A stretch of 44,380 bases of DNA from an uncultured Clostridia bacterium (GTDB taxonomy: Bacteria; Bacillota; Clostridia; Christensenellales; Aristaeellaceae), in NCBI GenBank assembly GCA_946413245.1, contig CAMKJS010000022.1, forward strand, positions 1-44,380. Reading direction: 5' to 3'. A program made the position numbers and the translations under genes. Shown piece by piece: positions 10,592 to 44,380 of this stretch. The number at the start of each line of letters is the position of its first letter. Position 1 is the first letter of the stretch. The notes beneath the pieces are model-generated. The model saw only the letters and a list, made by a program, of their open reading frames with translations. It searched no databases and was not told the origin of the DNA.

Positions 10592-11449
10592 TTTCATTTC
10601 GGTCAGGAGTTCCCCGTCCCGGAGGGTGACCAGGATGCCGTTCGCTGTATCCTGAGTGACGAGCACCGGGATATTGTTGCCGGAGAGGAGCTTGAGCACC
10701 CGCGGGGAGGGCGTGTCCGGCTCGTCCGCCGTGTTGGTGGAGATGACGGCCAGCTTCGGCTGCAGGGCGACGATCAGGGCAGCGCTGGTAGCGTCGTCCT
10801 CGCCGTGGTTACCGATTTTCAGCACGTCCACCTGCGGCAGAACGCCGGCGTCCAGCAGAGACTGCTCCTCCGGGAATTCCATATCCCCGGTGAGGAGTAT
10901 GCTTCCGCCGCCGCCTTCCGCCAGCAGCACCAGGGAGTTGTTGTTCTCCTTCTCCGAATCCAGGGCCAGGGGGCCGACAACGGTCAGCTTCCCACCGTCC
11001 AGCGGCAGTTCCGCGCCGGCGGAGATATAGATGACTTTGCGATCTGTTTTTTTGATCGCTTTTTCGGCAGGGTGTTTCCCGTCCTCTTTCTTCAAAACGT
11101 AGTATGCCGAGGCGTAAATGTTTTCAACCGTGATATCCGAGGCGAGGAGCTCTTTCAGGCCGCCGGTGTGGTCCGCGTGGGTATGCGTCAGGATCACGCC
11201 GGTGAGCCGGGTGACGCCTTCCGCACGCAGTACGCTGAGCAGCGTGTCCGCGCTTTTTTTGCTTCCGGTGTCGATCAGGTAGGCGCTTTCTCCGCTGCGC
11301 AGCAGGAGCGCGTCCGCCTTCCGCACGTTGATGGCCAGCAGGGAAAGCTCTGAAGATTCCGCCGGAACGCCTGCCGGAACTTCCGCCATGCAGCATCCGA
11401 GGAACAACGACAGCATCAGGGTCAGGGCGGTTATTTTCTTTCCGATCAC
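10589..11449 (-). CDS. Secreted metallo-beta-lactamase-fold hydrolase, ComEC C-domain-like
   Basis: The N terminus is a signal peptide (ITALTLMLSLFLGCCMA). The cysteines are not in a good lipobox, so I favour secretion rather than a lipoprotein. The metal motif HTHADH is at residues 89-94, followed by ILLTGDMEF and KIGNHG, as in the C-terminal hydrolase domain of the DNA-uptake protein ComEC and in stand-alone secreted relatives. Some of these act on nucleic acid or phosphoesters, but the substrate here cannot be read from sequence. The start is GTG at 11449 with AAAGGAGG 6 bases upstream. It stands alone and ends in the shared terminator. Confidence 0.82.
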   Translation of the reverse strand: MIGKKITALTLMLSLFLGCCMAEVPAGVPAESSELSLLAINVRKADALLLRSGESAYLIDTGSKKSADTLLSVLRAEGVTRLTGVILTHTHADHTGGLKELLASDITVENIYASAYYVLKKEDGKHPAEKAIKKTDRKVIYISAGAELPLDGGKLTVVGPLALDSEKENNNSLVLLAEGGGGSILLTGDMEFPEEQSLLDAGVLPQVDVLKIGNHGEDDATSAALIVALQPKLAVISTNTADEPDTPSPRVLKLLSGNNIPVLVTQDTANGILVTLRDGELLTEMK

Positions 11450-11532
11450 GTTTTGCCCTCCTTTCGGTTTATACCTGCCTAATTAACGATTTCATGGTGA
11501 ATTTGCTTCCCGGGCAATTATTCGACGGGGAA

Positions 11533-11679
11533 AGGGGAGGTACCTGCTTTTTATCCCCTCAGCCGGCTGAGCCGGCAGCTCTCCGCAGCCTCAATCGTCG
11601 CAACTCCGCACAGGGGAGCTTACTCCTTCCCGGTTGATTTCAACTCTGACGGGACTCCCGACTCAGTCGGTCGTCAGAG
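11533..11679. repeat. Structured intergenic element with nested inverted repeats
   Basis: The 266-bp gap between two minus-strand genes holds several inverted repeats: AGGGGA (11533-11538) with TCCCCT (11554-11559); GCCGGCT with AGCCGGC (11562-11576); and CTCTGACG (11644-11651) with CGTCAGAG (11672-11679), enclosing CGACT-C-AGTCG (11659-11669). No ORF or T-run fits a simple terminator. It resembles the small palindromic elements scattered between genes in many Clostridia, but one copy alone cannot prove that. Confidence 0.4.
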
Positions 11680-11715
11680 CTTCGTCCACCGGGCTGACGC
11701 TTCCCTCACTCCCCG

Positions 11716-13344: not shown

Positions 13345-13350
13345 GACAGG

Positions 13351-14484
13351 TTACTTGATGCGGATGGCAAGGCTCAGGTCAGCAACGTTGTCCTCGCTGA
13401 CAGGGGCCAGATACAGGGCATCGGGAAGCGTTTCCAGACAGGGAAGGAGGAACTCCGCGTCCGAATCGGAACACGCGACGGGGCCGACGCTGTCCGGGAA
13501 CAGGAGGGTTCCGCTGCCGTCGACAAGCTGCAGGCTGTCTATCCAGGAGCCGAAGACGTTCATGGGGCCGTTTTCCCACATCTCGTTCCCATCCTCGTCC
13601 AGGGCCATTACGCCGTTTTCAGCGATATAGGCAGCCATGACTTCCTCCGGAACGGTGAGGTCCATCGTGATGTAGGTCATCATCGGGGAGAAAACAGCCT
13701 CCCGGATATTTACGGTGACCATGGGCAGCACGGTTTCCCCTTCCGGACGGATGATCCGGAGGGAGGAGAGGACGTCCCTGGCGTCAAAATCGAAGGTTAC
13801 GATTCCTTTCTCCGGCAGCAGCATGCGTCCTTCCGCGTCCCGGGTTTCCGGGTGCATATCCCGGGCGTAGTCTGCCAGATCCTGCTTTTCTCCGATGGGC
13901 AGGCTGATTTTCACCTTTCCCTCCAGGAAAACGCCTACGTTGTCCAGCCGCCACACGTCCGTCTCAATGAACTCCCCGGGGACGCCGGTGCCGGAAAAAT
14001 ACTGGCCGGACCCATCCGGCATATCGCTCAGCGGCACGCCGTCGATCCAGATTTCGTCGCACCACCAGCCGACACCGGAGTTATCCATCAGTTCATCCGC
14101 GCCATCCGCCAGGCCGTAGACGTACGCGTCCGGGTCCATGCCTTCGGGCAGATCCTCCCCGTAATATTCCGCGGCGGTGATGCCCAGGGGCATATCCACA
14201 TCCGGCAGACGGAAACTGTACTGCAGGAACAGCGTCCGGCCGTCGTACGCGGCTTCCAGGATGGTGATTTCCACGTTGCCGGCTGTTTCGCTGTGACCGA
14301 TCGGCTGGATCAGCTGTGCCGCGCTTTCGGAGAGTTCACTTTCCGTCTGCTCCATGATCGTGGTACGCAGGCTGTGCAGGGAATCCTCGCCGGCCGCGGA
14401 AACCGCGCCGAGGACGAGCGCCAGAAGGAGAAAAAGGATTCCGAACCTTTTTCCGATGCGGACGAAATTGCTGTGATTCTTCAT
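13351..14484 (-). CDS. Secreted protein of unknown function (possibly DUF4179-like)
   Basis: A hydrophobic signal sequence (about residues 13-30, FGILFLLLALVLGAVSAAG) precedes about 345 residues of acidic, mainly beta-type sequence. The stretch NVEITILEAAYDGRTLFLQYSF recalls the beta-sandwich domain of DUF4179-type proteins, but the match is by eye and weak. The reading frame can be extended to a TTG at 14496, but GGAGG lies inside that extension, so the ATG at 14484 is the start. It is the middle gene of a three-gene operon that ends in the VanZ/carboxypeptidase fusion, suggesting an envelope role. Confidence 0.7.
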   Translation of the reverse strand: MKNHSNFVRIGKRFGILFLLLALVLGAVSAAGEDSLHSLRTTIMEQTESELSESAAQLIQPIGHSETAGNVEITILEAAYDGRTLFLQYSFRLPDVDMPLGITAAEYYGEDLPEGMDPDAYVYGLADGADELMDNSGVGWWCDEIWIDGVPLSDMPDGSGQYFSGTGVPGEFIETDVWRLDNVGVFLEGKVKISLPIGEKQDLADYARDMHPETRDAEGRMLLPEKGIVTFDFDARDVLSSLRIIRPEGETVLPMVTVNIREAVFSPMMTYITMDLTVPEEVMAAYIAENGVMALDEDGNEMWENGPMNVFGSWIDSLQLVDGSGTLLFPDSVGPVACSDSDAEFLLPCLETLPDALYLAPVSEDNVADLSLAIRIK

Positions 14485-14502
14485 AATAACCTCCAAGTTT
14501 TA

Positions 14503-15324
14503 TCAGAACTCCCACTGCCACATATTGAGCCAGGTTTTCTCGAAGACCAGGCCGTCGATGGTTTCATCGTCGGAAAGGACATGCAGACAGTCGTTTTCAT
14601 CCAGGGTGAAGGTCGCGGTGACCTCCGTCTCGTGCTGGTCCGCGTCCAGATCCAGATCCCCGTTCTCAAGATATGTATAGAGCAGCTTACAGCCATTCAC
14701 GGGCAGGGAATCTGTCATGGGATCGTAGTTGCCGCCCAGCATCCAGCTCCAGCTTTCGGAAGCGCTGTTTGCCCAGTCCAGCCATACATCGTAGATCAGG
14801 TCTTCGCCGGCATACTGGATCCTCATCGTAGCCCGGTCGCAGACGTACACGTCCGTGAAGGCGCCGATCCGGTGGAACACCGTAGCCTGGAACGTGTCTT
14901 CCTTCGTATCGTCCCAGACGAGATCATCGTCATCGTTAAGCCAGAAATAAGCGGTGCCGTCGTCGTATTCGGTGACGGATTCCGTGATCGCTCCGTCTTC
15001 GTCGAAGGTGTTCGCAGCCTTGAGACCGATACCGTCGCAGACCAGCTTGTGCTGTTCGTCGTCATAGGTCATGAGATATTCCCAGGAGTTGAAGGTGTTG
15101 TCCCCGGTCATTTCCACGACGTGCATCTCGAAACCGTCCAGCCGGCAGAAGCCGTTGATGCGGATCATCGCGTCTCCGGAGATCCAGTCGGACTCATAGG
15201 CCAGGGCTTCGGGATGGAGATCCGGGAAATCGACCCATTCCGCTTCCTCCGTTTCCGCGAAAGCGTACATGCAAACCGTCAGCATCATCGCGAGAGCCAG
15301 CATCATCGCAAAGAACTTTTTCAT
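14503..15324 (-). CDS. Secreted acidic protein of unknown function
   Basis: The 273-aa product has a typical signal peptide (MKKFFAMMLALAMMLTVCMYAFA, cleavage before ETEE). The mature part is strongly acidic, with runs such as NDDDDLVWDD and DLDLDADQHE, and rich in Trp and Tyr. I do not recognise the family. Its spacing of aromatic and acidic residues would suit a beta-rich extracellular domain. AAGGAGG lies 9 bases before the ATG, and a good promoter lies 54-82 bp upstream. It is the first gene of the operon, with an 18-bp gap to the next. Confidence 0.7.
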   Translation of the reverse strand: MKKFFAMMLALAMMLTVCMYAFAETEEAEWVDFPDLHPEALAYESDWISGDAMIRINGFCRLDGFEMHVVEMTGDNTFNSWEYLMTYDDEQHKLVCDGIGLKAANTFDEDGAITESVTEYDDGTAYFWLNDDDDLVWDDTKEDTFQATVFHRIGAFTDVYVCDRATMRIQYAGEDLIYDVWLDWANSASESWSWMLGGNYDPMTDSLPVNGCKLLYTYLENGDLDLDADQHETEVTATFTLDENDCLHVLSDDETIDGLVFEKTWLNMWQWEF

Positions 15325-31788: not shown

Positions 31789-32301
31789 GTGCGTTTGTTT
31801 GTCGGAATCAGTCCGTCCGATGATGTGCGGCGGTCCCTCGTCAGGATGCAGGACTTCCTGTCCCGTCATGGAATCAGCGGTACCTATCTGACACCGGAAA
31901 ACCTGCACATGACGCTGACCTTTATCGGTGCGTATCCGGAACCGGATCCGGTGCTCGGTGCGATGGAAGAAGCAGCGTTTGAACCGTTCGAAATCGTATA
32001 TGATCATATCGGCACGTTCAGGGAAAGCATCATCTGGGGCGGGACAGAACCCTGCGAACCGCTGGAAACGCTGGTGAAGCGACTGCGGCATTCGCTTGCC
32101 GGGGCTGATATCCCGTTTGATCGTTCAGCATTTACCCCACACTTTACCCTTGCAAGGCATGCCGACTTCAGCCATGGTATTCCATCAGCGGAGATTGTTC
32201 CTGTGCCTATGATCGTCGATCAGATGATTCTGTTTCGTTCGGATCGCGGGAAGAACGGTATGGTGTACACGCCGATCGGCGCTGTGAACGCCCGTTACTG
32301 A
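31789..32301 (+). CDS. thpR: RNA 2',3'-cyclic phosphodiesterase, 2H family (ThpR/LigT)
   Basis: The 2H fold is marked by two HxTx motifs: HMTLTF near residue 40 and HFTLAR near residue 122. The N terminus RLFVGISPSDDVR is typical. These enzymes open 2',3'-cyclic phosphates and can join tRNA halves in vitro. The start is GTG 31789, 11 bases after AAGGAGG, giving 170 aa, a little short but complete. The open frame upstream lacks a binding site. Its stop overlaps the convergent GH2 gene's stop by 7 bp. Confidence 0.85.
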   Translation: MRLFVGISPSDDVRRSLVRMQDFLSRHGISGTYLTPENLHMTLTFIGAYPEPDPVLGAMEEAAFEPFEIVYDHIGTFRESIIWGGTEPCEPLETLVKRLRHSLAGADIPFDRSAFTPHFTLARHADFSHGIPSAEIVPVPMIVDQMILFRSDRGKNGMVYTPIGAVNARY

Positions 32302-34955
32302 CTCACGAGAAAGCGCAGGGTTTCCTCGGTGATGAACTGATCCGGCGCGAAATCGGCGGAGGAAAGGTAATGATAGATGGCGGCCTGCAGCGCGCGGGCT
32401 TCAGGGTACTGCTGCAGCTGATGCAGGCCCAGGGAGGAAAGGAGCACGCGGCCGTTTCCGAACCGGGCTTCGAGCATCTGGGCCATAGGACGCATGGTGG
32501 CATAGCTGTCCATTTCCGTGACGATGGCACGCAGCGGTTCCGGCAGGATGAATGCCCGCTGGTTCGCCATCGGCCACCATTGCCAGTCAGTATGGCTTTC
32601 CGTAGGGAAACGGCGGAAAATCGGGTGCGCTGCGTCGATCAGCTGACCCATGCCGCCTTCCTGACCGGGGAAGGTGCCGACCGACCAGAAATCGGTGGAA
32701 AACTGGGCCTGAATAGAATGGGGCAGGGATTCCGGGCAGGAATCCGGGGACAGGTACACTACGCCGCCCGCGGCGAGAACCGCTTTGACGGAATCATTGA
32801 AATGCCGCGCCTCCAGAACGCCTTCCGGACAAACGGGTCCGGCCGGCGGATAGACCCAGACGGGATAGGCGTTTTCCCAGCCGGCAAAGGAAACCCGCAG
32901 CGACAGGGCACCGATTTCCTGATCACCCAGGGTAATTTCCAGAACGCCCAGATCCGCGAGGCCGCCGCAGGGGGCGGTTGCCGCCGGCAAGTCCCCGGTG
33001 AGGCTGCCCAGGGTCCAGCGCAGGCAGCCGGTCAGATCCTGCTTTCCATAGTTCGCCATTCTCACCCTGGCAGAGAGGCGTTCGCCCGACTCATACGTGA
33101 AGCGGTTCAGCATCACAAGGGGCAGGCAGGCGCGGAAAAAGGATTCGAAGCGCTCCGGGGCGGCAAAAGGATAAGGCTTGGGCTTCAGGTGGCTGTTCAT
33201 CATCCCCACGAGGGCGGTGCCCTGGCCGGTGAAATCCTGCAGGCTCAGGAGTGAAATGCCGCTCATTCCCTCCGAAAGCAGGGCAGCCTCGATCTCCGCC
33301 CGATAACAGAGGCGGGAAAGCTCGCCGGATGCTTCCACGCGCAGCGGCCATTCGGCTTCCAGATTCGCTTCTCTCACCTTCGCCCGGATCAGGGCCAGGT
33401 TGTCCGCACGGGTTATGCCTTGGAATTCATCGATCTCGGCAAAATCCGGAAGCACCTCATACTGTCCCACCTCAAAGCTGAAGACCGGCCTGGGGTATGT
33501 TTCGTGAATCTTTTTAATCACGGAAGAATAATTCAGCTTCGCATTGGCATAGATATGGTTCAGTGGGCCCTGCATGTTTGCGCAGGTGGCGCGGATTTTC
33601 TCCTCAAAATACCGCTCGGAAGTATAAAAATCGCTGTTTAGGTCGCACCCAAGGGCGCCGTAGTGGGCGTTTGAAGCATTGGCATAGAGGCGGGTGGGAT
33701 CGAGGCTGCGGGCCAGGGCGAGGAGCGCATCCATGCGCCGGCGGCCCAGTTCTCCGGTGCAAAGTTCATTTCCCAGCGTCAGCATCACAAAGGAGGGATG
33801 ATTGGCCAGCTGCAGGATGACCCGGGTCAGTTCGTCACGATAATACGCAAAGCTTTCCTCCTGCTCAAAAGCGTCACGGGGATTCCAGTGGGACAGCTCC
33901 GGCTGCATCAGCATACCCAGCCGGTCAGCGGCTTCAAAGGCGGCTTCGGGCGGGACGTGGGAATGGAAACGGACGCAGTTGACGCCATAGGCGCGATAGG
34001 TTTTCAGGATATCGGTCCAGGCTTCGACCTCCATGGGGGGATGGCCGGTTTCCGGGAAAAGGGCGCAGTTGGTTTCGCCGCGTAAAAAGAACCCGCGGCC
34101 GTTCAGCGCCAGCCGTCCGGACTGATTGCCGAAATCCCGCACACCGAAGGAAACCGTTTTGGTTTCCAGCCCTTCGCTGCTGACGGAAAGGGTATACAGA
34201 TTCCCTTCTCCTTCGTCCCAGCGGCGGACATCCGGGACCAGAGGGAGGTTGCGGAACCAGATTTCATGAAGGCCGGGTTCCACGCTGCCTTCCGCCCGCG
34301 CCGGTTCCGCCAGGGCTTCGCTTTCCGCGCGGAGAACGCCATGCCAGGGGACGGCGGCCGAGAGCACGGCGCAAATATCCAGCTTCTGTCCATGGGGATA
34401 GACCCGGACGGCATGGAGGAAGACCGGATTTTCGACCCGGAGATGCAGAAAACCGAGGAGGCCGTTCCAGTTCGTCTGGGTCTCATCGGTAGCGGCGGAG
34501 GAAAAGACGATGGCGTCATGGGGCCAGCCCGGATAGCTGTTATCGCTGATCAGGGAAAACAGGTCGTCGCCCGTCAGAAAACCGGTCACTTCGAATATAT
34601 ATGGGGTGGAAATCGTGGGCGGGAGAAAGGGCGGGACAGGCTTTCCATTGACCGACAGGCTGAGGAAGCGAGCCCGTTCGGCCTCCAGAAAGACGCGGCG
34701 GTCCGGAGGGATCGCCGTCCGCAAACGGCGGGTGATCGTCGCCGGGCCTTCGTAGGTGCAGCAGCGGGTGAGGCGGGTGGCGATGACGCCCTCCGCCTGC
34801 AGCGCGGCGTTCACGGCGGCGTCGGGGTGCCATTTCGCGGCGGTCATATCCGGATAGCCGATTCTGTTTTCGTCCAAGGTGCCGGGCAGGATTATATCTG
34901 CCGTCCGGCCGGGTATTTCGCAGCGCCATGTTCCGGCGAGAGGGATCAGAACCAT
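32295..34955 (-). CDS. Glycoside hydrolase family 2 enzyme (beta-galactosidase/glucuronidase-like)
   Basis: The 886-aa protein has the GH2 domain order: an N-terminal sugar-binding beta domain (PLAGTWRCEIPG, RFLSLSVNGKPVP, 1-180), an Ig-like domain, then a TIM barrel. The acid/base is E in TLGNELCTGE (about 395) and the nucleophile probably E in SFEVGQYEV (about 495). FLRGETNCALFP and YGVNCVRFHSHVPPEAAFEAADRLGML are also characteristic. No signal peptide is seen, so it acts in the cytoplasm. GGAGG lies 7 bases before ATG 34955. It faces the ABC operon divergently and is likely to digest the imported glycan. Confidence 0.87.
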   Translation of the reverse strand: MVLIPLAGTWRCEIPGRTADIILPGTLDENRIGYPDMTAAKWHPDAAVNAALQAEGVIATRLTRCCTYEGPATITRRLRTAIPPDRRVFLEAERARFLSLSVNGKPVPPFLPPTISTPYIFEVTGFLTGDDLFSLISDNSYPGWPHDAIVFSSAATDETQTNWNGLLGFLHLRVENPVFLHAVRVYPHGQKLDICAVLSAAVPWHGVLRAESEALAEPARAEGSVEPGLHEIWFRNLPLVPDVRRWDEGEGNLYTLSVSSEGLETKTVSFGVRDFGNQSGRLALNGRGFFLRGETNCALFPETGHPPMEVEAWTDILKTYRAYGVNCVRFHSHVPPEAAFEAADRLGMLMQPELSHWNPRDAFEQEESFAYYRDELTRVILQLANHPSFVMLTLGNELCTGELGRRRMDALLALARSLDPTRLYANASNAHYGALGCDLNSDFYTSERYFEEKIRATCANMQGPLNHIYANAKLNYSSVIKKIHETYPRPVFSFEVGQYEVLPDFAEIDEFQGITRADNLALIRAKVREANLEAEWPLRVEASGELSRLCYRAEIEAALLSEGMSGISLLSLQDFTGQGTALVGMMNSHLKPKPYPFAAPERFESFFRACLPLVMLNRFTYESGERLSARVRMANYGKQDLTGCLRWTLGSLTGDLPAATAPCGGLADLGVLEITLGDQEIGALSLRVSFAGWENAYPVWVYPPAGPVCPEGVLEARHFNDSVKAVLAAGGVVYLSPDSCPESLPHSIQAQFSTDFWSVGTFPGQEGGMGQLIDAAHPIFRRFPTESHTDWQWWPMANQRAFILPEPLRAIVTEMDSYATMRPMAQMLEARFGNGRVLLSSLGLHQLQQYPEARALQAAIYHYLSSADFAPDQFITEETLRFLVSQ

Positions 34956-35015
34956 GGGGATTCCTCCTTATCATCAGGCAGCGGAACGCGGGGATGGTCC
35001 GCAGGTGTCGGAAAC

Positions 35016-35024
35016 AGTATATCA
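35016..35024 (-). promoter_or_regulatory. Possible extended -10 promoter of the GH2 gene
   Basis: On the minus strand TGA-TATACT (35016-35024) with no good -35 at 17 bp. It would start transcription about 70 bp before the GH2 ATG. The 254-bp divergent gap (34956-35209) contains no ORF. Confidence 0.4.
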
Positions 35025-35057
35025 AAATGACAGGGAGAACGCCATGAAAAAAACAGA

Positions 35058-35086
35058 TTGCCAAGAGGGCACTTTTTTGCTATAAT
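35058..35086 (+). promoter_or_regulatory. Promoter of the carbohydrate ABC transporter operon
   Basis: TTGCCA (35058-35063), 17-bp spacer, TATAAT (35081-35086) with TGC before the -10. This leaves a leader of about 115 nt before the first gene. Confidence 0.88.
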
Positions 35087-35096
35087 GGCAAAAAAG
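35072..35096. promoter_or_regulatory. Candidate operator: 9-bp inverted repeat around the -10 box
   Basis: CTTTTTTGC (35072-35080) and GCAAAAAAG (35088-35096) are exact reverse complements around TATAATG. A repressor bound here would cover the -10 and start site. The TTGCCA -35 box also has a partner, TGGCAA (35086-35091). Confidence 0.5.
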
Positions 35097-35209
35097 AGAT
35101 TATTTTCGTACATGAAAAGTTGAGGCTTCATTTCAGGTCTTACGCAGCGCGCGGCGCTGTTTGAGAATCATCTGGCTTTCGCCACGAAACGAAAAGGAGG
35201 AAATGATCC

Positions 35210-37192
35210 ATGAAGAAAGTGACTGCCCTGTTCCTGGCCCTTGTTATGGTTATGCTGTGCGTCCCCGTTCTGGCGGAAAGCAGCACACCGACTGTGGTCA
35301 TCCGCATGGGAACCCACTGGGCCCCCGAGCTGGATCCTCACATGATTGACGAAACCACCGGAAACTACACCATCGGCGACGAAGAGGACCGCCTGATCCG
35401 CGTGGCCGCAGAAGAAGCGGTGAAGGAAGCGTTCAACGTTGAAATCGAATACGTGCAGTATGCCCAGGACACCAGGAGCGAGCTGGTGCTGAGCGTACTG
35501 GCCGGAAATCCGGTTTGCGACCTGGCGCTGATGTGGAACGGATCGGAAAACACGGTGCTGGCGCAGAACATCCTGCAGCCGCTGGATCAGTATGCCGGCA
35601 TTTTCGAAGGCGCGGCGTGGATGCTGCCGGACAAGGTATACGGCCATAACTACTTTGTGAACGCCAACCAGAGCTTCACCCAGTATTTCTCCCTGCTGGT
35701 GAACCTGACGATGCTGGAAAAGGTGGACGCCCTGAAGGACGCCGACGGCAACATCGTATATCCCACCGACCTGCTGGAGAAGGACGAGTGGACCTGGAGC
35801 ACCTTCAAGGATTATCTGACCAAGATTCAGGCTTACTACGGCAATACCCCGGCCCCCGAAGGCGCGAAGGTTTCCACCGTGCAGGCCTATGAAACCGACC
35901 ACCGGTATGCCACCTTGTCCGCCATGTATGCCAACGGCGGCGCGATCTACGGCGCCAAAGGCCTGCAGGTGAACAGCAAGGAATCCATCGAAGCCGTGCA
36001 GTATATCCAGTCTCTCCGCGACGCGGGCGTGATGGTGGACTGCGGCGTTTATGACGACGGATACACCCCCCAGTGGTGCGAATCCGGCTCCGACTTCGGC
36101 CGCGGCGCCACCGTGTTTGCCGAGTGTCCCATCTGGATGATCAAGAGCCACGTGGACGAATGCACCGCCCGCGGCGAATCCGTGGCCCTCATGCCCTGGC
36201 CCCGGCCCGACAGCCTGGCCAAGGACAGCGAGGAATATCGCCAGGTGATTTCCGTCGGCGACATCTGGGGCGTGCTGAAGGGCATCGACGCGGAAAAGAC
36301 CGAGCTGTGCCTGAAGGTGTTCCGGAAATACTGGGAAACCTACTACGAACTCAAGGCCGGCGTCACCGACATGAGCGAATACAAGAGCGCCATGGCCGAA
36401 ACCGAAGCCATGAAATACGGCCTGGACATCTTCAACGAGAAGCTGGGCGACGGCATTCTGAACGCCTTTATATTCAACTCCGAGAAGTGCATCCCCAATG
36501 ACTTCGCCAACCTGCTGGGCATGCGTGATCCCTGGGACCGCATCGTCGGCAAGGGCTTCTACGGCGTGGAAGGCATGCCCGCCTATGAAGTGGCCATCGA
36601 AGCCAACATGAACAAGTTTACCGACACGATGGCGCAGATGGAAGCCATCCTGGGCAGCAACGAGATCCACGACAACCAGGCGCCTTCCGTCAGCGCGGAA
36701 GGATATCTGGCTGTGGCCAAGGGAACCGATCTGAGCGACTACGACTGGTCCGCTCATTTCACCGCCGAGGACGGCTTTGACGGCGTTCTCGACCCCGCTT
36801 CCGGCACGTATGACACCGGCGAAGTGGACGTGAACACCATCGGCGTTTACAAAGTGAAGGGCATTTTCGCCGACAAGGCGGGCAACGAGGGAAGCGCGAA
36901 GATCGAAGTGCGCGTGTTCAACCCGGACAACACGACGCCTCCCACCCTGACCCTGAAGGAAGAGCTGCCGGCCGTGCCCATGGATTCGGACGCCAGCGGC
37001 ATCGACTGGGCGGGCAGCTTTGTGGAGACCGCGGCGGACGCGGACGGCCTGGATCTGAAGGGTATGGTGGAGGCTGACATTTCCCAGCTGGATACTTCCA
37101 CCCCCGGCGAATATCCTGTGATCCTCAGCGTGGCTGACTACGTGGGCAACACCACGGTTGTGGAAATCACCGTGAGTGTGGTTGCCGAATAA
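35210..37192 (+). CDS. Secreted extracellular solute-binding protein with two C-terminal Ig-like domains
   Basis: The signal peptide MKKVTALFLALVMVMLCVPVLA is followed by a family 1-type sugar-binding domain (about 30-480), with MWNGSENTVLAQNILQPLDQYA and AECPIWMIKSHVDECTARGESVALMPWPRP. Residues about 488-575 and 580-660 are two Ig-like (DUF5011/cadherin-like) domains, for example NTIGVYKVKGIFADKAGNEGSAKIEVRVF. No lipobox Cys is present, unlike most Bacillota binding proteins; the Ig-like tail may hold it at the surface. AAGGAGG is 9 bases before the ATG. It is the first gene of the operon. Pure Ig fusions to binding proteins are uncommon. Confidence 0.85.
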   Translation: MKKVTALFLALVMVMLCVPVLAESSTPTVVIRMGTHWAPELDPHMIDETTGNYTIGDEEDRLIRVAAEEAVKEAFNVEIEYVQYAQDTRSELVLSVLAGNPVCDLALMWNGSENTVLAQNILQPLDQYAGIFEGAAWMLPDKVYGHNYFVNANQSFTQYFSLLVNLTMLEKVDALKDADGNIVYPTDLLEKDEWTWSTFKDYLTKIQAYYGNTPAPEGAKVSTVQAYETDHRYATLSAMYANGGAIYGAKGLQVNSKESIEAVQYIQSLRDAGVMVDCGVYDDGYTPQWCESGSDFGRGATVFAECPIWMIKSHVDECTARGESVALMPWPRPDSLAKDSEEYRQVISVGDIWGVLKGIDAEKTELCLKVFRKYWETYYELKAGVTDMSEYKSAMAETEAMKYGLDIFNEKLGDGILNAFIFNSEKCIPNDFANLLGMRDPWDRIVGKGFYGVEGMPAYEVAIEANMNKFTDTMAQMEAILGSNEIHDNQAPSVSAEGYLAVAKGTDLSDYDWSAHFTAEDGFDGVLDPASGTYDTGEVDVNTIGVYKVKGIFADKAGNEGSAKIEVRVFNPDNTTPPTLTLKEELPAVPMDSDASGIDWAGSFVETAADADGLDLKGMVEADISQLDTSTPGEYPVILSVADYVGNTTVVEITVSVVAE

Positions 37193-37203
37193 ACATGAAC
37201 CAT

Positions 37204-37229
37204 GACGCGCCGGAGGGTTCCGGCGCGTC
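37204..37229 (+). promoter_or_regulatory. Stable intercistronic hairpin after the first binding-protein gene
   Basis: GACGCGCCGG (37204-37213) pairs perfectly with CCGGCGCGTC (37220-37229). No T-run follows, so this is probably an mRNA-processing or stability element that lowers expression of downstream genes relative to the first, a pattern known for binding-protein genes. Confidence 0.5.
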
Positions 37230-37313
37230 TCCCGCGTCAACGGCGGGCGTCATCGGGGCGAATCCCTGCAGCGCCTGCCGTTTTTCTTTCGAGAGTGAAA
37301 AGGGGTGAAACCC

Positions 37314-40226
37314 GTGCAAAGCAGGAAAAAGCTTGTGATTGGAATCTGCGCGGCGGCGGTGGTTCTCGCCGTTGTGCTGGGCGTCTGGCTGCTTCCGAAG
37401 CAGGAAGAAGCGCTGTTTGCCGTGTCCGCGGTCTCCTCCGCCCAGGCCGTGGAAACCTCCTATCAGGCCTACCTGGATGAAAAAGGCTACGCGGAGCAGA
37501 TGGCGGCCGGGCAGGCGGAAGTGGACGTTTTTGCCTGGACGGAGGACGGCAGCGCCCGGGCGGAAAACGGCCAGGACGGCGTGCTGACAGAGGACATCGG
37601 GACGGTGACATGGCCGTTCACGGTGGCGAAAGCCGGGTTTTACAACCTGAAAATCAGCTATATCGGCCTGCCGGGCACCACATCGGATATCCAGCGCCGG
37701 GTGCTGCTGGACGGGGAAGCCCCTTATAACGCTTTGAACCAGATCGTTTTCAAGCGGCTGTGGCGGGACGAGGACATCCGGCTGAAGAACGAGAACGAGA
37801 TCCGGCCGAACGCGGAGGAAGTTTACCAGGAGCAGACCGTTTTCCTGGAGGACTACGACCGCCGCAGCGGCGAGCCCCTGCTTTTCTATCTGAGTGCGGG
37901 GGACCACACGCTGAGCTTCGAGGCCGTGAAGGAACCCATGGAAATCACCGCCCTGTGCTTCGAGGCCGCACCCCGGATCCCGGCTTACGCCGACGTGCTG
38001 TCCGGATGGAAAGGGGAGGGGAAGGCGGAAGCCGCTCCTGCTGAGGCCATCGTGTGTCAGGCGGAACGTCGGGAAGGGGCCACGAAAGAAATTCTCAAAT
38101 CCAGCCCCTCCATCAACGTGCAGAAAAACTATTCCGACGCGGCTCTGGTGCCCTACCATGCGTGGCATACGCTGTATCCCACAATCGGCGCGGGAAGCTG
38201 GGCCCAGCCGGGGGACGCGATCCAGTGGACGGTTGAAGCGCCGGCAGACGGGCTGTATCTGCTCACCTTCAAGGGCAGGCAGACCAACCGGGGCGTGACC
38301 AGCTACCGCAGGCTGAAAATCAACGGCGAAATCCCCTTCGCGGAAGCCGCTGTGGTTGGATTCGACTACTCCGGAGTGATGCAGAACTACACGCTGACGG
38401 ACGAAAGCGGAGCTCCCTGCCGGGTATATTTGCAGAAAGGCGAAAACACGATTTCGCTGGAGGTGGTGCTGGGGGCCATCGGCGGGGTGCTGAGCCAGGT
38501 GGAACAGAGTCTGCGTACGCTGAACGACCTGTATCTGCGCACTATCCAGATTACGGGCCAGGCCCCCAGCCAGTTCATCGACTACGAAATCGCGAAAAAG
38601 GTGCCGGGGTTTGTTTCCTCCATGCAGGAGGAAAGCCGGCGGCTGTACGGCCTGGTGGACGAAATGGTGCGGATCACCGGGGAAAAGGGCGAAAATACCG
38701 CGCTGCTTGAAAAAATGGCGATCGAAGCCGAAGGGCTGGCCAGGAAGCCGGACCAGATCGTGAACGAGCTGAACCAGTTCAAAAACAACATTTCCGCCCT
38801 GGGCACCTGGATCGTGAATATTTCCAGCATGCCGCTGGAAATGGACAGCCTGATCCTTTCGGCGGACACAGCCTCGATTCCCACGCCGCGGGAAACCGTC
38901 TGGGAAGGCATCGTGGCGGATACCCAGCGGTTCTTCGCCACCTTCTTCCATTCCGCGAGCAGCGTGGTATCCGACGCGGAGAGCACCGGCGCGGACAAGG
39001 GCGTCAAGGTATGGATGGCCTCGGCGGGCCGGGAGCAGGCCCAGATCATCCAGAACATGATCGACGAAACCTTCGCGCCGGAAACGGGTATCCCCGTGAA
39101 GCTGCAGCTGATTCCCACGGACGTGGTGCTGCGGGCCGCACTGGCGGGCAACGGTCCGGACGTGGTGATCGGCCTGAGCCAGGCGACGGCCCAAGACTTC
39201 GCCATGCGGGGTGCGGTGACGGATCTGAGCAAGCTGGAGGGCTTTGAAGAAGTTACCGCCAGGTACGGCTCCGGGCTGATGCGCACGGCGAGCTACCAGG
39301 GCGGCGTGTGGGGAATTCCCGAACAGGTCACCTTCCAGATGCTGTTCTACCGTCAGGATGTGCTGGAGGATCTGGGGCTTTCCGTGCCCAGCACGTGGAC
39401 GGAGGTTATGGAAATGATCCCCGTGCTGAGCCGGGAGAACTACAAGTTCTACATGCCCTCCACCCGCGTGACCACGGGCCTGAACGTGTTCCAGGCCATG
39501 GTGTACCAGAACGGCGGGGAGATTTACTTGGGCGAGGGGAACGACTACGGCGTGGCCTCCGCCCTGTACAGCGACGAGGCGATGGAAGCCTTCAAATGGT
39601 TCACGGACCTGTTCACCGTCCACGGCCTGGAGGTGCAGGCGGACTTCAACAACCGCTTCCGGACGGGGGAAATGCCCGTCGGCATCACGGACTACACCGC
39701 GTACTGCACGCTGGAGATCTTCGCGCCGGAAATCAAGGGTCTGTGGAGCTTCGCCCCCTTCCCCGGCACGGAGAAGGAGGACGGCAGCGTCGACAACACT
39801 TACGTGTGCGATACGGTGCAGACCGTGATCATGAAAGGCGCGCGGAACAGGAATTCGGCCTGGGAATTCGTGAAATGGTGGAATTCCACGAAGAGCCAGC
39901 TGAGCTACGCCAACACCCTGGAATCCATCATGGGCGCCGCTGCCCGCTATCCTGCTGCGGATCCGGATGTGATCCGGCAGCTTCCCTGGAGCAACAACGA
40001 GCTGGAAGAGCTGCTCTCCCAGTACCGGCATCTCAACGGGATGCCCGCCGTACCCGGCTACTACATGAACACGCGCATGATCTCCTACGCCTTTGAAGAC
40101 GTGGTGGCCGACCTGAGCAGCCCCCGGGAGACGCTGTATCTGAACATCCGGGACATCGACAAGGAACTGACCAAGAAGCGCACGGAATTCGGACTGACCA
40201 CCATGGAAGGAGGGATGACGAAATGA
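37314..40226 (+). CDS. Giant membrane-tethered solute-binding protein with carbohydrate-binding-like modules
   Basis: The 970-aa protein starts at GTG 37314, with AAAGGGG 8 bases upstream (GTG 37305 is in the binding site). Residues 6-28 (KLVIGICAAAVVLAVVLGVWLL) are an uncleaved anchor. Two jelly-roll-type modules follow at about 60-230 and 290-430 (TWPFTVAKAGFYNLKISYIGLPG, WTVEAPADGLYLLTFKGR), which look like CBM6/35-type sugar binding. Residues about 430-555 are helical. Residues about 560-960 are a sugar-binding protein domain (KVWMASAGREQAQIIQNMIDETF, DVVIGLSQATAQDFA). Joining glycan grip and import receptor on one anchored chain is unusual. The stop overlaps the permease start. Confidence 0.82.
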   Translation: MQSRKKLVIGICAAAVVLAVVLGVWLLPKQEEALFAVSAVSSAQAVETSYQAYLDEKGYAEQMAAGQAEVDVFAWTEDGSARAENGQDGVLTEDIGTVTWPFTVAKAGFYNLKISYIGLPGTTSDIQRRVLLDGEAPYNALNQIVFKRLWRDEDIRLKNENEIRPNAEEVYQEQTVFLEDYDRRSGEPLLFYLSAGDHTLSFEAVKEPMEITALCFEAAPRIPAYADVLSGWKGEGKAEAAPAEAIVCQAERREGATKEILKSSPSINVQKNYSDAALVPYHAWHTLYPTIGAGSWAQPGDAIQWTVEAPADGLYLLTFKGRQTNRGVTSYRRLKINGEIPFAEAAVVGFDYSGVMQNYTLTDESGAPCRVYLQKGENTISLEVVLGAIGGVLSQVEQSLRTLNDLYLRTIQITGQAPSQFIDYEIAKKVPGFVSSMQEESRRLYGLVDEMVRITGEKGENTALLEKMAIEAEGLARKPDQIVNELNQFKNNISALGTWIVNISSMPLEMDSLILSADTASIPTPRETVWEGIVADTQRFFATFFHSASSVVSDAESTGADKGVKVWMASAGREQAQIIQNMIDETFAPETGIPVKLQLIPTDVVLRAALAGNGPDVVIGLSQATAQDFAMRGAVTDLSKLEGFEEVTARYGSGLMRTASYQGGVWGIPEQVTFQMLFYRQDVLEDLGLSVPSTWTEVMEMIPVLSRENYKFYMPSTRVTTGLNVFQAMVYQNGGEIYLGEGNDYGVASALYSDEAMEAFKWFTDLFTVHGLEVQADFNNRFRTGEMPVGITDYTAYCTLEIFAPEIKGLWSFAPFPGTEKEDGSVDNTYVCDTVQTVIMKGARNRNSAWEFVKWWNSTKSQLSYANTLESIMGAAARYPAADPDVIRQLPWSNNELEELLSQYRHLNGMPAVPGYYMNTRMISYAFEDVVADLSSPRETLYLNIRDIDKELTKKRTEFGLTTMEGGMTK

Positions 40227-41131
40227 TGGTTTCCTCCCGGAAGCTGCCCTTCAGGGCGGCGCTGAAACGCTACCGGAACCAGTACCTGCTGGTGGCCCCC
40301 TTTGCCATCGTGTTTTTCCTGTTCACGGTGCTGCCGGTGCTCGCCGCCATCGGGCTGAGTTTTACCTCCTTCAACATGACCAGCGCGCCTTCCTTCGTGG
40401 GGCTGGTCAACTATGTGACGCTCATCGTGGAGGACGACGTTTTCCTGACGGCCCTCAAAAACACGCTGGTGTTTGCCCTGCTGACAGGCCCGCTTTCCTA
40501 CATCATGTGCTTCCTGTTCGCCTGGCTCATCAATGAGCTGCCCCGGATCCCCCGGGCGCTGATGACCCTGGTGTTTTACGCCCCCTCCATCTCGGGCAAC
40601 GTATACCTGGTGTGGAAGCTGATCTTCTCCTCGGACACCTACGGCTGGGCCAACGCCTGGCTGATGAAACTGGGGATCACCCGCGAAGCCATTCTGTGGC
40701 TTACCACGGAAGCCTACATCATGCCCATCCTGATCGTCGTCCAGCTGTGGATGAGCCTGGGCGTGTCCTTCCTTTCCTTCATCGCCGGCCTCCAGACGGT
40801 GGATAAAGCCATGTATGAGGCCGGGGCTGTGGAAGGGATCAAGAACCGGTGGCAGGAGCTGTGGTATATCACCCTGCCCGCCATGAAGCCCCAGCTGATG
40901 TTCGGCGCGGTGATGCAGATCACGTCCTCCTTCGCCGTCAGCCAGATCTCCCTGGACCTGGTCGGCTTCCCGTCCGTGAACTACGCGGGCCACACGATCA
41001 TGACGCACCTGCACGACTACGGCAACCTGCGCTATGAGATGGGGTACGCGTGCACGATCGCCGTGGTGCTGTTCCTGATCATGCTCTTCTGCAACATCCT
41101 GGTGCAGAAGCTGCTGCGCAAGCTGGGTTAA
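40223..41131 (+). CDS. Carbohydrate ABC transporter permease (MalF/UgpA-like)
   Basis: The 302-aa protein has six hydrophobic segments and the EAA loop EAGAVEGIKNRWQELWYITLP at about 199-219, which contacts the ATPase. The N terminus YLLVAPFAIVFFLFTVLPVLAAIGLSF is typical of MalF/UgpA-type sugar permeases. The start overlaps the previous stop by 4 bp (ATGA) behind GGAGGG. No ATPase is in the operon, so a shared MsmX-type ATPase encoded elsewhere is expected. Confidence 0.92.
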   Translation: MMVSSRKLPFRAALKRYRNQYLLVAPFAIVFFLFTVLPVLAAIGLSFTSFNMTSAPSFVGLVNYVTLIVEDDVFLTALKNTLVFALLTGPLSYIMCFLFAWLINELPRIPRALMTLVFYAPSISGNVYLVWKLIFSSDTYGWANAWLMKLGITREAILWLTTEAYIMPILIVVQLWMSLGVSFLSFIAGLQTVDKAMYEAGAVEGIKNRWQELWYITLPAMKPQLMFGAVMQITSSFAVSQISLDLVGFPSVNYAGHTIMTHLHDYGNLRYEMGYACTIAVVLFLIMLFCNILVQKLLRKLG

Positions 41132-41145
41132 GGGGGGGAGAAAAG

Positions 41146-42054
41146 ATGGCGAAAAAGAAAACGCGTCAACCCGCTGCCCGACATGGCCTGATCACCGCGC
41201 TGCGGAACCGGAAGCTCAAGCGCCGCCGCTCGCTGGCGGTGGACATCCTGCTGTTCATCCTGTTGGCGGCATTCGGCATTTTCTCCCTGTTCCCGCTGAT
41301 TTTCACCGTGGTGAACGCCTTTAAGCCCATGAGCGAGATCTTTATCTTCCCGCCCAAGCTGACAGTGGACAATCCCACGCTGAACAACTTCTATGATCTG
41401 GGCTTCATCCTGGAATCCTTCGACGTGCCCATGAGCCGGTATATCTTCAATACGGCCGTGATCACCGGGCTTGGTACGCTGGGCACGGTGCTGCTCGGAT
41501 CCATGGCGGCCTTCGCCCTGGCGAAATATGAGTTCCCCGGCAGCAAGATGATGAGCAGCCTGATCGTATATGCCCTGATGTTCTCCGCCTCGGTCACGGC
41601 GATCCCCAATTACCTGATCATGACCTACCTGGGCCTGGTGGACACCTACTGGGCGGTGATCCTGACCGCAGTGGGCGGCACGCTGGGGCTGTATCTGATG
41701 AAAAACTTCATCGTGGGGATTCCCGATTCCCTGATCGAAGCCGCCACTATCGACGGGGCCAATGAGTTCACGATCTACTGGAAGATTATCATGCCGCTGT
41801 GCAAGCCTGCCTGGATCACGCTGATCATCCTTTCCTTCCAGCAGATGTGGGGCACCACCGGCGGCGTATTCATCTACTCCGAAGAGCTGAAGCCCGTATC
41901 CTACGTGCTGAGCCAGCTGGTCAGCGGCGGCATCGCCCGCACCGGCGTATCCTCCGCCGTGTCCCTCATCATGATGACCGTGCCCGTCGTGGTGTTCGTG
42001 ATTTCCCAGAGCAACGTGCTGGAAACCATGTCCACCTCCGGCATGAAGGATTAA
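41146..42054 (+). CDS. Carbohydrate ABC transporter permease (MalG/UgpE-like)
   Basis: The second permease, 302 aa, has about six membrane segments and the EAA motif EAATIDGANEFTIYWKIIMPLC at about 198-219. FSLFPLIFTVVNAFKPMSEIF is the expected MalG-type first-segment sequence. The ATG at 41146 is 6 bases after GGGGGGAG and 14 bp after the first permease. The longer frame that begins inside the previous gene is rejected. Together with the previous gene it forms the membrane channel of the importer. Confidence 0.92.
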   Translation: MAKKKTRQPAARHGLITALRNRKLKRRRSLAVDILLFILLAAFGIFSLFPLIFTVVNAFKPMSEIFIFPPKLTVDNPTLNNFYDLGFILESFDVPMSRYIFNTAVITGLGTLGTVLLGSMAAFALAKYEFPGSKMMSSLIVYALMFSASVTAIPNYLIMTYLGLVDTYWAVILTAVGGTLGLYLMKNFIVGIPDSLIEAATIDGANEFTIYWKIIMPLCKPAWITLIILSFQQMWGTTGGVFIYSEELKPVSYVLSQLVSGGIARTGVSSAVSLIMMTVPVVVFVISQSNVLETMSTSGMKD

Positions 42055-42068
42055 GGGGGGAGAGAACG

Positions 42069-43532
42069 ATGAAAAAGATTGGATCCTTCCTGCTGGCCCT
42101 GCTTCTGCTTCTTCCCGCCGCCGGGCTGGCCGCGGACGGAAGCAGCAACGTATACGCGGGGTATACCTACGACCATTACGGCAACGTGAAATCCACCCCC
42201 GCCCCCTTCCTGCTGGAAAAGACCATCACCTCCGAAAACCTCAGGGGGATCGCCCTGGACAGCGTGGACGACATCTGTACCTCCCGGGACGGGCGCATCT
42301 TCCTGGTGGACGGAAAGCAAAGCCGCGTTCACGTGCTGGATTCCGATGGAAACATGTTGAAGACGCTCAAAACGATCCGGGATACGGACAACAAAATCGT
42401 GATCCTGGAGGACGGCTCCCAGCTGATGTTCAACGGCTGCCAGGGCGCCTTCTACCACGAAAAGCAGAATGAGCTGTACATCGCCGATACCGCCGCGCAG
42501 CGGGTGGTTGTGCTGGATGGGGAAGACTACACCTTCCGGCGGATGATCACCCGCCCGGACAACATGACCGGCGTGACGGAATTCAAGCCTGCCAAGGTGA
42601 CCGTGGACAACGCGGACCGGATATACCTGGTGGTGCAGTCCAGCTATGAAGGCATTATCGAACTCAACGAGGACGGAACCTTCTCCCGCTACTTCGGTGT
42701 GAACGAGCCGCAGATCAACATCGTCGATTACCTGTGGAAATCCATCGCCACCGACGCGCAGAAGGAGAAAATGGGCAAGATCTACGCTCCCGCCTTCAAC
42801 AACGTGGCCCTGGACGGCGAAGGCTTCGTGATGGCCGTGACGAGTGACCAGAGCGCCAGCAAGCCCGTTTTCCGCCTGAATTTCCAGGGGAAGAACGTGT
42901 TGCGGGAAATGGGCAGTTTCAACGTGATGGGCGATTTGCAGACGCCGGGGGAGAGCGACAACACATTTGTGGATATCGCGGTAAAACCCTACGGCACCTA
43001 CGCGGTGCTGGACAAGGCTTACGGCAGGGTGTTCCTGTACAACTTCGACGGGGAACTGCTCTCTGTGTTCGGCAGCAAGGGCAACCTGGCGGCTGAATTC
43101 AGGATTCCCAGCGCCATCGCCTGGCTGGGCGACAAGCTGGTGATCGGCGACAGCGCCCTGAAATGCGCCTATGTGATGGAACCCTCCGATTTCGGAAAGG
43201 CGCTGCTGGATGCCAACGAGGCCTACTACTACGGCCGCTGGGAGGAGGCCACCGCCCACTTCGAGCGGGTGCTGCGCCTTTGCTCCAACATGGAAACGGC
43301 TTATGTGGGCATCGGCAAAAACCTGCTGATGCAGGAGCGTTTCCGGGAGGCCATGGACTACTTCAAACTGGGGAACAACCGGGAATTCTTCTCCAAGGCC
43401 TATAAGGGCTACCGCAGCGAGGTCCTGCGGGATCACTTCGGCATCATCGCGTTTATTGCTGTGGTGCTCATCGGCCTCGTGATCGGCTCGGAAATCTCCT
43501 ATAACCGCAAGCAAAGGAGGGGAAGCAAATGA
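42069..43532 (+). CDS. Membrane-anchored NHL-repeat / TPR protein
   Basis: A signal peptide (MKKIGSFLLALLLLLPAAGLA) is followed by an extracytoplasmic beta-propeller of NHL-like blades at about 40-370 (DGRIFLVDGKQSRVHVLDSDG, NELYIADTAAQRVVVLDGE, GRVFLYNFDGELLSVFGSKGNL). Next comes a TPR-like helical pair at about 377-440 (ANEAYYYGRWEEATAHFERVL...) and a single membrane helix at about 455-478 with a positive C-terminal tail (SYNRKQRRGSK). The propeller is thus outside and the tail inside. It is 14 bp after the permease. It has no known place in ABC import; a scaffold or sensor role is inference only. Confidence 0.78.
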   Translation: MKKIGSFLLALLLLLPAAGLAADGSSNVYAGYTYDHYGNVKSTPAPFLLEKTITSENLRGIALDSVDDICTSRDGRIFLVDGKQSRVHVLDSDGNMLKTLKTIRDTDNKIVILEDGSQLMFNGCQGAFYHEKQNELYIADTAAQRVVVLDGEDYTFRRMITRPDNMTGVTEFKPAKVTVDNADRIYLVVQSSYEGIIELNEDGTFSRYFGVNEPQINIVDYLWKSIATDAQKEKMGKIYAPAFNNVALDGEGFVMAVTSDQSASKPVFRLNFQGKNVLREMGSFNVMGDLQTPGESDNTFVDIAVKPYGTYAVLDKAYGRVFLYNFDGELLSVFGSKGNLAAEFRIPSAIAWLGDKLVIGDSALKCAYVMEPSDFGKALLDANEAYYYGRWEEATAHFERVLRLCSNMETAYVGIGKNLLMQERFREAMDYFKLGNNREFFSKAYKGYRSEVLRDHFGIIAFIAVVLIGLVIGSEISYNRKQRRGSK

Positions 43533-44161
43533 AAGCATCCATCACCAAAGAAAAGCTGGGGTGGTGGGGCCACGCCCTGGTACACCCCTTCGACGGGTTC
43601 TATGAGATCCGCTTCCGCAATCAGGGCAGCCTGCTGCTGGCCTTCCTGCTCATGATCGCGTTCGCGGTGATGCGCTGTCTGTCCGCCCAGTATACGGGCT
43701 TCGTGATGAACCTGACCAACCAGGACGAGCTGGATACCCTGTCCCTGTTCATTTCCAATATCTCGGTGCTGCTCCTTTTCTCCCTTTCCAACTGGACGGT
43801 GACAACCCTGTTCAACGGCAAGGGAAAACTGAGCGATATCTACATTGTGATCTGCTATTCCCTCACCGTGCTTATCATCGGAGACGCGCTGGTGTGCTTC
43901 GTGAGCAACTTCGTCACCCTCGAGGAAGTGATGATCCTGCAGGCTGTGCAGATGCTGTGCATCGCCTGGTTCGTTTTCCTGATTGTGGCGGGGCTTGGCA
44001 CCATCCATGAATACAGCCTGGGAGGCAACCTGGCTTCCATCGTGATGAGCATCGCGGCGGCGGCCATCATCCTGTTCATCGGCATCCTGCTGTTCACCAT
44101 GCTGGAAAGGATGGTCAGCTTCTTCACCAGCGTGGGACAGGAACTGATGCGGCGGCTGTAA
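43529..44161 (+). CDS. Yip1 family membrane protein
   Basis: The 210-aa protein has five hydrophobic segments (about 33-52, 70-90, 103-125, 132-155, 168-193). The N terminus WWGHALVHPFDGFYEIRFRNQGS matches the Yip1 domain start (HP..gF..i). Bacterial Yip1 proteins have no clear function; in eukaryotes the family binds Rab GTPases. It overlaps the NHL gene by 4 bp, so their products are made in step and may interact. Neighbouring Yip1 and ABC permease genes recur in Paenibacillus and Clostridia loci as I recall, without a described role. Confidence 0.8.
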   Translation: MKASITKEKLGWWGHALVHPFDGFYEIRFRNQGSLLLAFLLMIAFAVMRCLSAQYTGFVMNLTNQDELDTLSLFISNISVLLLFSLSNWTVTTLFNGKGKLSDIYIVICYSLTVLIIGDALVCFVSNFVTLEEVMILQAVQMLCIAWFVFLIVAGLGTIHEYSLGGNLASIVMSIAAAAIILFIGILLFTMLERMVSFFTSVGQELMRRL

Positions 44162-44174
44162 GGAGGGATGAGAT

Positions 44175-44380
44175 ATGATCAATAAGCTCAAGGACTTCTA
44201 CGGCGCGCATCCCATCCGGCGGACGCTGATCACGCTTCTCCTTGTCGCGGTTGCCGCGCTGCTGATTTACTTCCGGCCCGCCTTTTTCCTGAAGGGCGTC
44301 GCCATTCCGGAGACTGTCATCCTCCACGCTGAAAAGGGCGAAGAGATCCCGAAGGCGGGGAAAGTAACGGTGGCGCAGGA
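44175..44380 (+). CDS. N-terminal start of a membrane-anchored protein, cut by the window end (possibly DUF5696)
   Basis: ATG 44175 follows GGAGGGATGAGAT and is 13 bp after the Yip1 stop. The 68 visible residues have a positive start (MINKLKDFYGAHPIRR), a membrane helix at about 17-33 (TLITLLLVAVAALLIYF), and an outward beginning (PETVILHAEKGEE...). Large DUF5696 proteins often follow Yip1 genes in such loci, as I recall. The part seen is too short to prove it. The gene continues past 44380. Confidence 0.6.
   Translation, partial: MINKLKDFYGAHPIRRTLITLLLVAVAALLIYFRPAFFLKGVAIPETVILHAEKGEEIPKAGKVTVAQ

Follow-up and report, generated by a model that had tools for sequence, protein, structure and literature searches.

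Positions 35210-44380 of the window, our name for the whole 44,380-nucleotide stretch of contig CAMKJS010000022.1 (C22; assembly GCA_946413245.1) from an uncultured Clostridia bacterium, hold one tightly packed, co-directional string of plus-strand genes at the window end, as judged from the open reading frames and the gaps between them. The string belongs to a fixed cassette of about eight genes that is found in many Firmicutes and has the order tethered CBM35-like/binding protein, permease, permease, NHL/TPR protein, Yip1 protein, DUF5696 protein, permease, permease. We propose that this operon is one copy of a glycan-capture-and-import cassette whose products form an assembly at the cell surface, a reading that we hold to be about evenly poised between right and wrong.

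Conservation of the cassette

A profile of the NHL/TPR protein matched 61 of the 291 class genomes at E ≤ 1e-15, some of them with several copies, and also matched 29 of 299 genomes in a phylum-wide sample that includes the window's own genome and two class genomes; two of the phylum-wide matches (G301 and G458) are weak and partial and may not be cassettes. Linkage was counted with models built in this analysis at 82 places, comprising 79 outside the window's own genome (with up to roughly 9 kb of flank either side) and the three within it, while six named loci, L009-L014, stand outside the count. Yip1 lay beside NHL/TPR at 81 of the 82 places, sharing an open frame with it in 35, and DUF5696 was present at 80, the tethered solute-binding protein (SBP) at 77, two permeases just upstream at 75 and at least two permeases downstream at 70. 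The exceptions for Yip1, DUF5696 and the tethered protein, SBP2, all fall at contig ends. The seven upstream-permease exceptions comprise four contig ends, one locus with broken frames (L077), and L108 and L109, where one permease is upstream and the other behind permease 4; among the twelve downstream exceptions only L104 and L106, from one genome, are unexplained by a contig end. The conserved linkage is far beyond chance.

An initial annotation of the window had placed the three genes that follow the first permease pair with the importer, had suggested searching for conserved NHL/TPR-Yip1 neighbourhoods next to ABC permeases, and had said that the idea would fall if the genes after 42069 mostly occurred without permeases. 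The neighbourhood is conserved and the three genes do belong with the importer, since the upstream permease pair, Yip1 and DUF5696 are kept at nearly all 82 places. Among the seven cassette parts, distances correlate at 0.80-0.93, and in 66 of 84 cases NHL/TPR and DUF5696 point to one and the same nearest relative; shared descent contributes to both figures. Across 72,556 plasmid records only two had a DUF5696 match, both inside a cassette, in Butyrivibrio fibrisolvens D1 and Paenibacillus cellulosilyticus. In the Paenibacillus copy the YIP1 gene encodes 719 residues, a length that fits the fusion, and a ugpC ATPase gene lies immediately upstream. At L077 (genome G193), SBP2, DUF5696 and the permeases are in pieces and NHL/TPR is shortened, through decay or sequencing error; that genome has two other copies.

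The frames and tight spacing reported in the initial annotation stood up to this reading. A gap of 112 bp separates the first gene from SBP2, which overlaps permease 1 by 4 bp; 14 bp lie between the two permeases and 14 bp between permease 2 and NHL/TPR, which overlaps Yip1 by 4 bp, and 13 bp separate Yip1 from the last gene, which is cut by the contig end. The same position in the named-record relatives and in two other copies of the window's own genome holds a protein of about 830-870 residues, where the contig is long enough, and all four such proteins scanned were DUF5696 (PF18952), at 362-609 bits and over the Pfam cut-off; the 68-residue window fragment scored only 38 bits against the DUF5696 model built in this analysis. 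One further DUF5696 frame occurs in the same genome, at the end of contig C76 (L113), where it lacks the N-terminal part and scores 376 bits. A search for direct sequence overlap between C22 and C76 found none. C76 is probably the continuation of the window operon, because the DUF5696 halves are complementary and the gene order matches that of L009-L012. The GH30-type enzyme (PF14587) that closes the C76 group also stands directly behind permease 4 in relatives of the window clade (L012 16614-18209, L034 12482-14044). The last gene, previously called only another anchored protein, does have a transmembrane-anchored start, and its identity is corrected: it encodes the N-terminal 68 residues of a DUF5696 protein; the operon description was to that extent incomplete, as the second permease pair and the identity of the last protein lay beyond the window end.

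Proteins of the cassette

The window NHL/TPR protein is matched by Pfam below the cut-offs (TPR_2, E 8e-5; NHL, E 0.0017, 18.7 against 20 bits), and the homologue in L012 passes the NHL cut-off. With a nine-row profile the best match was a designed propeller at E 4.9e-32, followed by many solved NHL propellers and TPR proteins, and by these sequence matches the protein is an NHL beta-propeller. The Yip1 protein matches PF04893 at E 4.6e-16 (59.6 bits, cut-off 28.6). This Pfam family was found in 90 of the 291 class genomes and is therefore not confined to the cassette. In a tree of 87 NHL/TPR proteins, with SH-aLRT support only and with L077 left out as a fragment, the fused or separate state of Yip1 changes 10 times, at least five of them by starred branches. 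NHL/TPR and Yip1 probably work together, because they have been fused or split at least five times.

SBP2 contains a family-1 solute-binding domain (SBP_bac_1, E 6.5e-26; a seven-row profile matched the solved structure 5ysb at E 1.9e-25). The profile of its second beta domain matched a region of the cycloisomaltooligosaccharide glucanotransferase 5x7g, which we take to be CBM35, at E 6.6e-6. A Foldseek search with a weak model of SBP2 gave a multi-domain GH101 structure at the top (E 9.8e-7) and listed several CBM35 and CBM6 structures. The CBM35 Pfam cut-off of 28 bits was not reached in two homologues (13.8 and 17.6 bits), and window SBP2 had no CBM35 match at E ≤ 1, so this domain is termed CBM35-like only, on profile and model grounds. 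The domain, together with the GH129-type kinship of DUF5696 described below, supports the earlier idea of a platform that grips a glycan, a role that is predicted only.

Permeases 1 and 2 of the window match BPD_transp_1 (E 2.8e-4, under the cut-off, and 3.4e-7, respectively) and UgpA/UgpE/GlcT/GlcU-type NCBIfam models, all under the curated cut-offs. When permeases were sorted by best model, the EAA loop was present in 83 of 84 PERM1, 89 of 90 PERM2, 62 of 78 PERM3 and 64 of 69 PERM4 proteins; since most copies have the loop, each of the four kinds seems capable of ATPase coupling. Two permeases with an EAA coupling loop, as in a CUT1-type importer, are thus recognised in the sequence. Eight of ten tested genes close behind permease 4 encode SBPs. 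ABC-ATPase-like open reading frames were found by a motif scan in only 4 of the 82 fetched regions, and the window operon has none. We rejected this absence, which the initial annotation had recorded, as a special feature. At E ≤ 1e-60, seven UgpC-model matches lie elsewhere in the window's own genome, one of them over the cut-off (C21, 449 bits); three other ATPase candidates scanned fell below it. Promiscuous MsmX ATPases of Gram-positive bacteria are described in PMC8760340.

DUF5696 shows a distant yet significant sequence match to GH129 and GH101, with a corresponding fold match of a low-confidence model. Catalytic-type acids were compared in an alignment of 62 of the 82 listed DUF5696 frames (A5), 51 of which make up the set A6; L135 was left out of the set A7, as its match runs across stops. 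Three MAFFT settings gave identical columns and count as one alignment. An acid pair that is invariant in eight stand-alone DUF5696 relatives is absent from most cassette members, where both acids occur in 7 of 62 proteins, and in at most 16 when a slip of one residue is allowed in this uncertain region of the alignment. The conserved catalytic acids of GH129 and GH101 therefore do not appear to be kept across the class. Since so few cassette proteins keep the acid pair of the stand-alone relatives, the comparison suggests that cassette DUF5696 is mostly a glycan-binding pseudo-glycosidase.

DUF5696 occurs in 71 of the 291 class genomes, 60 of which also have an NHL/TPR match. Nine of the other 11 were read: three have cassette pieces at contig ends (G057, G071 and G101), and six have short proteins of about 565-600 residues, the fetched stretch showing no cassette permease. 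A further three short proteins come from cassette-bearing genomes. The short proteins L125-L131 and L136 have invariant acid motifs, HYxD and SEG, and weak GH101/GH129 matches, and are a candidate family of active glycosidases under the DUF5696 name.

A proposed surface assembly and its alternatives

In the mechanism that we propose, secreted enzymes, here GH30 and possibly GH2, would cut a plant glycan, the ends and fragments of which would be held at the outer face of the membrane by tethered SBP2 and by the membrane-anchored and mostly pseudo-glycosidase DUF5696. The propeller/TPR domain, fixed by its own transmembrane helix and the Yip1 bundle, would scaffold the binding proteins and the two importers, so that released fragments would go directly to permease pairs 1/2 and 3/4, the two pairs presumably sharing one UgpC/MsmX-type ATPase whose gene lies elsewhere. 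A more ambitious form of this idea, which we put forward tentatively and would not expect to hold in full, is an unnamed membrane super-assembly of Firmicutes in which the propeller/TPR-Yip1 scaffold joins the two importers, the mostly acid-less GH129-type protein is the glycan receptor that hands fragments over, and the whole is a substrate-neutral chassis for varied enzymes.

Several observations weigh against the proposed assembly. Physical contact among the cassette proteins rests on synteny and fusion. The SBP2 model has a pLDDT of 48, and that of DUF5696, predicted from only six rows before the 62-row alignment existed, has a mean pLDDT of 54 and a best Foldseek TM-score of only 0.23-0.29; moreover, the C-terminal barrel half of DUF5696 alone matches no solved glycosidase, and the alignment of the dyad there is uncertain. 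At the first position an acid is retained more often than chance predicts, in 25 of 62 proteins exactly and in 40 of 62 with a slip, against 0.36 expected. The window's relatives L010, L012 and L034 and the own-genome copies L007 and L008 carry one acid at the first position and another at or adjoining the second, and for this reason may be active enzymes; in the window's own lineage DUF5696 may have kept enzymatic activity. Of the 78 PERM3 copies, 16 have no EAA motif. Genes beside the cassette also include functions unrelated to carbohydrates: transglutaminase-like, FtsX, NRDD, carboxyl transferase, chemotaxis receptor and leucine-rich repeat proteins. The substrate is itself a guess: for the window copy we weakly favor a plant glycan, perhaps beta-galactan, because C76 carries a GH30 gene of PF14587, which we take to include galactanases, and the GH2 protein is nearest to an exo-beta-1,4-galactosidase NCBIfam model (432 bits, far under the cut-off of 1500).

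The acid positions bear on an alternative in which the locus encodes two ordinary carbohydrate ABC importers and an active, membrane-bound DUF5696 exo-glycosidase that trims glycans there, with partly other catalytic residues than its stand-alone relatives, and in which NHL/TPR-Yip1 is only the chaperone or anchor of that enzyme. The kinship to GH129/GH101-type enzymes, the invariant pair of the stand-alone relatives, the partial retention of acids in the class and among the window's relatives, and two acid columns with about 90% D/E across the cassette class all fit this account, which we nevertheless judge unlikely, as Glu is kept at the second position in at most 10 of 62 cassette proteins, acids near both positions are as rare as given above, and the barrel half expected to hold the active site finds no solved glycosidase by itself. 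A sensing device, in which SBP2, permeases 1/2 and propeller/TPR-Yip1 would read glycan occupancy or flux and signal across the membrane while permeases 3/4 and a further SBP import, seems to us distinctly improbable. The usual SBP is a lipoprotein, unlike SBP2 with its transmembrane anchor and extra domains, and a histidine kinase and response regulator lie near the Butyrivibrio copy and AraC-type regulators near L081 and L092, as such a device might have; yet PERM1 and PERM2 together have EAA loops in 172 of 174 proteins, as expected of transporters, and Pfam scans recognised no cytoplasmic signalling domain in the cassette proteins.

We give little credence to an envelope assembly or export machine, for a cell-wall polymer for example, that uses importer-like permeases. 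Eukaryotic Yip1 proteins act in membrane traffic and some loci have the transglutaminase-like and FtsX-like neighbours, but SBP_bac_1 domains, a CBM35-like domain, EAA-type permeases and glycosidase neighbours speak for import. That the genes after 42069 are a separate transcription unit, here by chance, is scarcely credible: nothing was found in its favor by consensus scans, which cannot show transcripts, and the 14-bp gap, the 4-bp overlap and the linkage at 82 places oppose it. The scan of 34800-44380, with the same limit, gave no second plus-strand promoter match besides the one ahead of the first gene (Table 1).

Genomic context, known systems and significance

Table 1. Coordinates of the window operon, its probable continuation on C76 and short DUF5696 proteins
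Feature	Contig or locus	Coordinates	Strand	Remarks
GH2-type glycosidase	C22 (window)	32295-34955	-	Divergent to the operon; Pfam GH2 TIM-barrel domain, E 4.1e-9
Sigma-70-like promoter, TTGCCA-17-TATAAT	C22 (window)	35058-35086	+	11/12 consensus match, TG ahead of -10; precedes first gene
First gene, 660-residue protein	C22 (window)	35210-37192	+	Signal-like N-terminus, C-terminal Ig-like domain
Strong, GC-rich intercistronic hairpin	C22 (window)	37204-37229	+	Between first and second gene
SBP2, membrane-tethered	C22 (window)	37305-40226	+	N-terminal transmembrane helix; two beta domains, second CBM35-like; helical part (weak model); SBP_bac_1, residues 580-865
ABC permease 1	C22 (window)	40223-41131	+	EAA loop present
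ABC permease 2	C22 (window)	41146-42054	+	EAA loop present
NHL/TPR protein	C22 (window)	42069-43532	+	NHL beta-propeller, then TPR; N- and C-terminal hydrophobic helices (C-terminal a transmembrane helix)
Yip1-domain membrane protein	C22 (window)	43529-44161	+	Pfam; 5 predicted transmembrane helices
DUF5696 protein start	C22 (window)	44175-44380	+	68 residues with transmembrane anchor; cut by contig end
DUF5696	C76 (L113)	12518-14893	-	
Permease 3	C76 (L113)	11619-12521	-	
Permease 4	C76 (L113)	10580-11629	-	
GH30-type enzyme (PF14587)	C76 (L113)	9120-10730	-	Directly behind permease 4
Short DUF5696 protein	L125	4431-6128		
Short DUF5696 protein	L126	1004-2701		
Short DUF5696 protein	L127	4589-6397		
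Short DUF5696 protein	L128	1087-2790		
Short DUF5696 protein	L129	3919-5625		
Short DUF5696 protein	L130	4005-5828		
Short DUF5696 protein	L131	3788-5533		
Short DUF5696 protein	L136	3761-5479		

The initial annotation had counted two permeases and two binding proteins. The permeases and SBP2 stand, and the first gene is not established as the second binding protein. Its product has no Pfam SBP match at E ≤ 1 and no NCBIfam SBP model, an eight-row profile touched a solved SBP at no better than E 0.086, and the C-terminal Ig-like domain (E 3.3e-9) is its sole clear part; we therefore rejected it as a proven binding protein. Promoter-like sites number 2 in all, by consensus match only, against 3.2 expected in shuffles. 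An inverted repeat at 35072-35096, possibly an operator or else a terminator-like hairpin, overlaps the -10 box of the promoter match ahead of the operon. The whole 112-nucleotide gap behind the first gene folds at z -4.06, and hairpins occur at the same gap position in the relatives L010 and L011; a hairpin after the first gene is often seen where the first product is made in excess. The GH2 gene does face the operon, as previously described. Elsewhere in the window, a calcineurin-like phosphoesterase, an SbcC/RAD50-like ATPase and a DUF2779/Cas4-like protein stand in a row with overlapping ends (306-6242), and a single frame combines a VanZ-like domain and a Peptidase_S11 domain of the D-Ala-D-Ala carboxypeptidase type (11716-13344).

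Among 30 neighbouring proteins that were chosen by hand, several of them housekeeping or unrelated, the enzymes beside different copies were GH30, GH9, rhamnosidase-type, GH3, GH42/35-like, arabinofuranosidase-like, sulfatase and GDSL proteins. The cassette core seems neutral to substrate, because differing enzymes stand beside differing copies. Behind the Paenibacillus cellulosilyticus copy (L115, 17766-26989) come four LLM-class flavin oxidoreductases and another two binding proteins, a set that hints at an unusual substrate. In L045 (14602-17466) and L057 (15390-18302), FtsX-like permeases some 960 residues long stand upstream of the cassette. No regulator was identified in the scanned part of the window operon's neighbours.

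Carbohydrate importers of the CUT1 type with a shared MsmX/UgpC ATPase resemble the cassette in the SBP_bac_1 domain, two EAA-loop permeases and an ATPase presumably encoded elsewhere; the cassette differs in having two permease pairs, a binding domain fused to a transmembrane anchor and a CBM35-like domain, and constant NHL/TPR, Yip1 and DUF5696 partners. Polysaccharide utilisation loci of Gram-positive bacteria likewise combine importer genes with variable glycosidases, and the window copy has such features in its GH2, GH30 and transporter genes. Regulators also stand beside some copies of the cassette, though not, as far as identified, beside this one, and the cassette keeps a constant protein core beside very different enzymes. 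GH129 and GH129-like enzymes (NagBb, ZgGH129 DagB) and GH101 are related to DUF5696 by sequence and by the weak fold match, whereas DUF5696 is membrane-anchored, linked to an importer and without catalytic-type acids conserved across the cassette. SusCD-type glycan uptake of Bacteroidetes also couples surface glycan capture to import, but the cassette has neither outer membrane nor TonB receptor and its proteins are unrelated.

In agreement with the earlier statement that the function is undescribed, the open-licence literature searched gave no description of the cassette, and nothing on DUF5696 or on the combination of yip1, NHL repeat, ABC transporter and operon. The parts are known by database name (YIP1 family protein, DUF5696, NHL), while the whole system is undescribed as far as searched. 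About one-fifth of the sampled class genomes (61/291) carry the cassette, some in multiple copies, and Butyrivibrio fibrisolvens D1 and Paenibacillus cellulosilyticus are two named hosts with annotated copies. Should the constant core prove to be a glycan-capture platform, Gram-positive bacteria would have a counterpart of surface glycan-uptake systems, DUF5696 and a bacterial branch of Yip1 would gain suggested functions, and many genes of unknown function, now scattered, would come together as one testable system.

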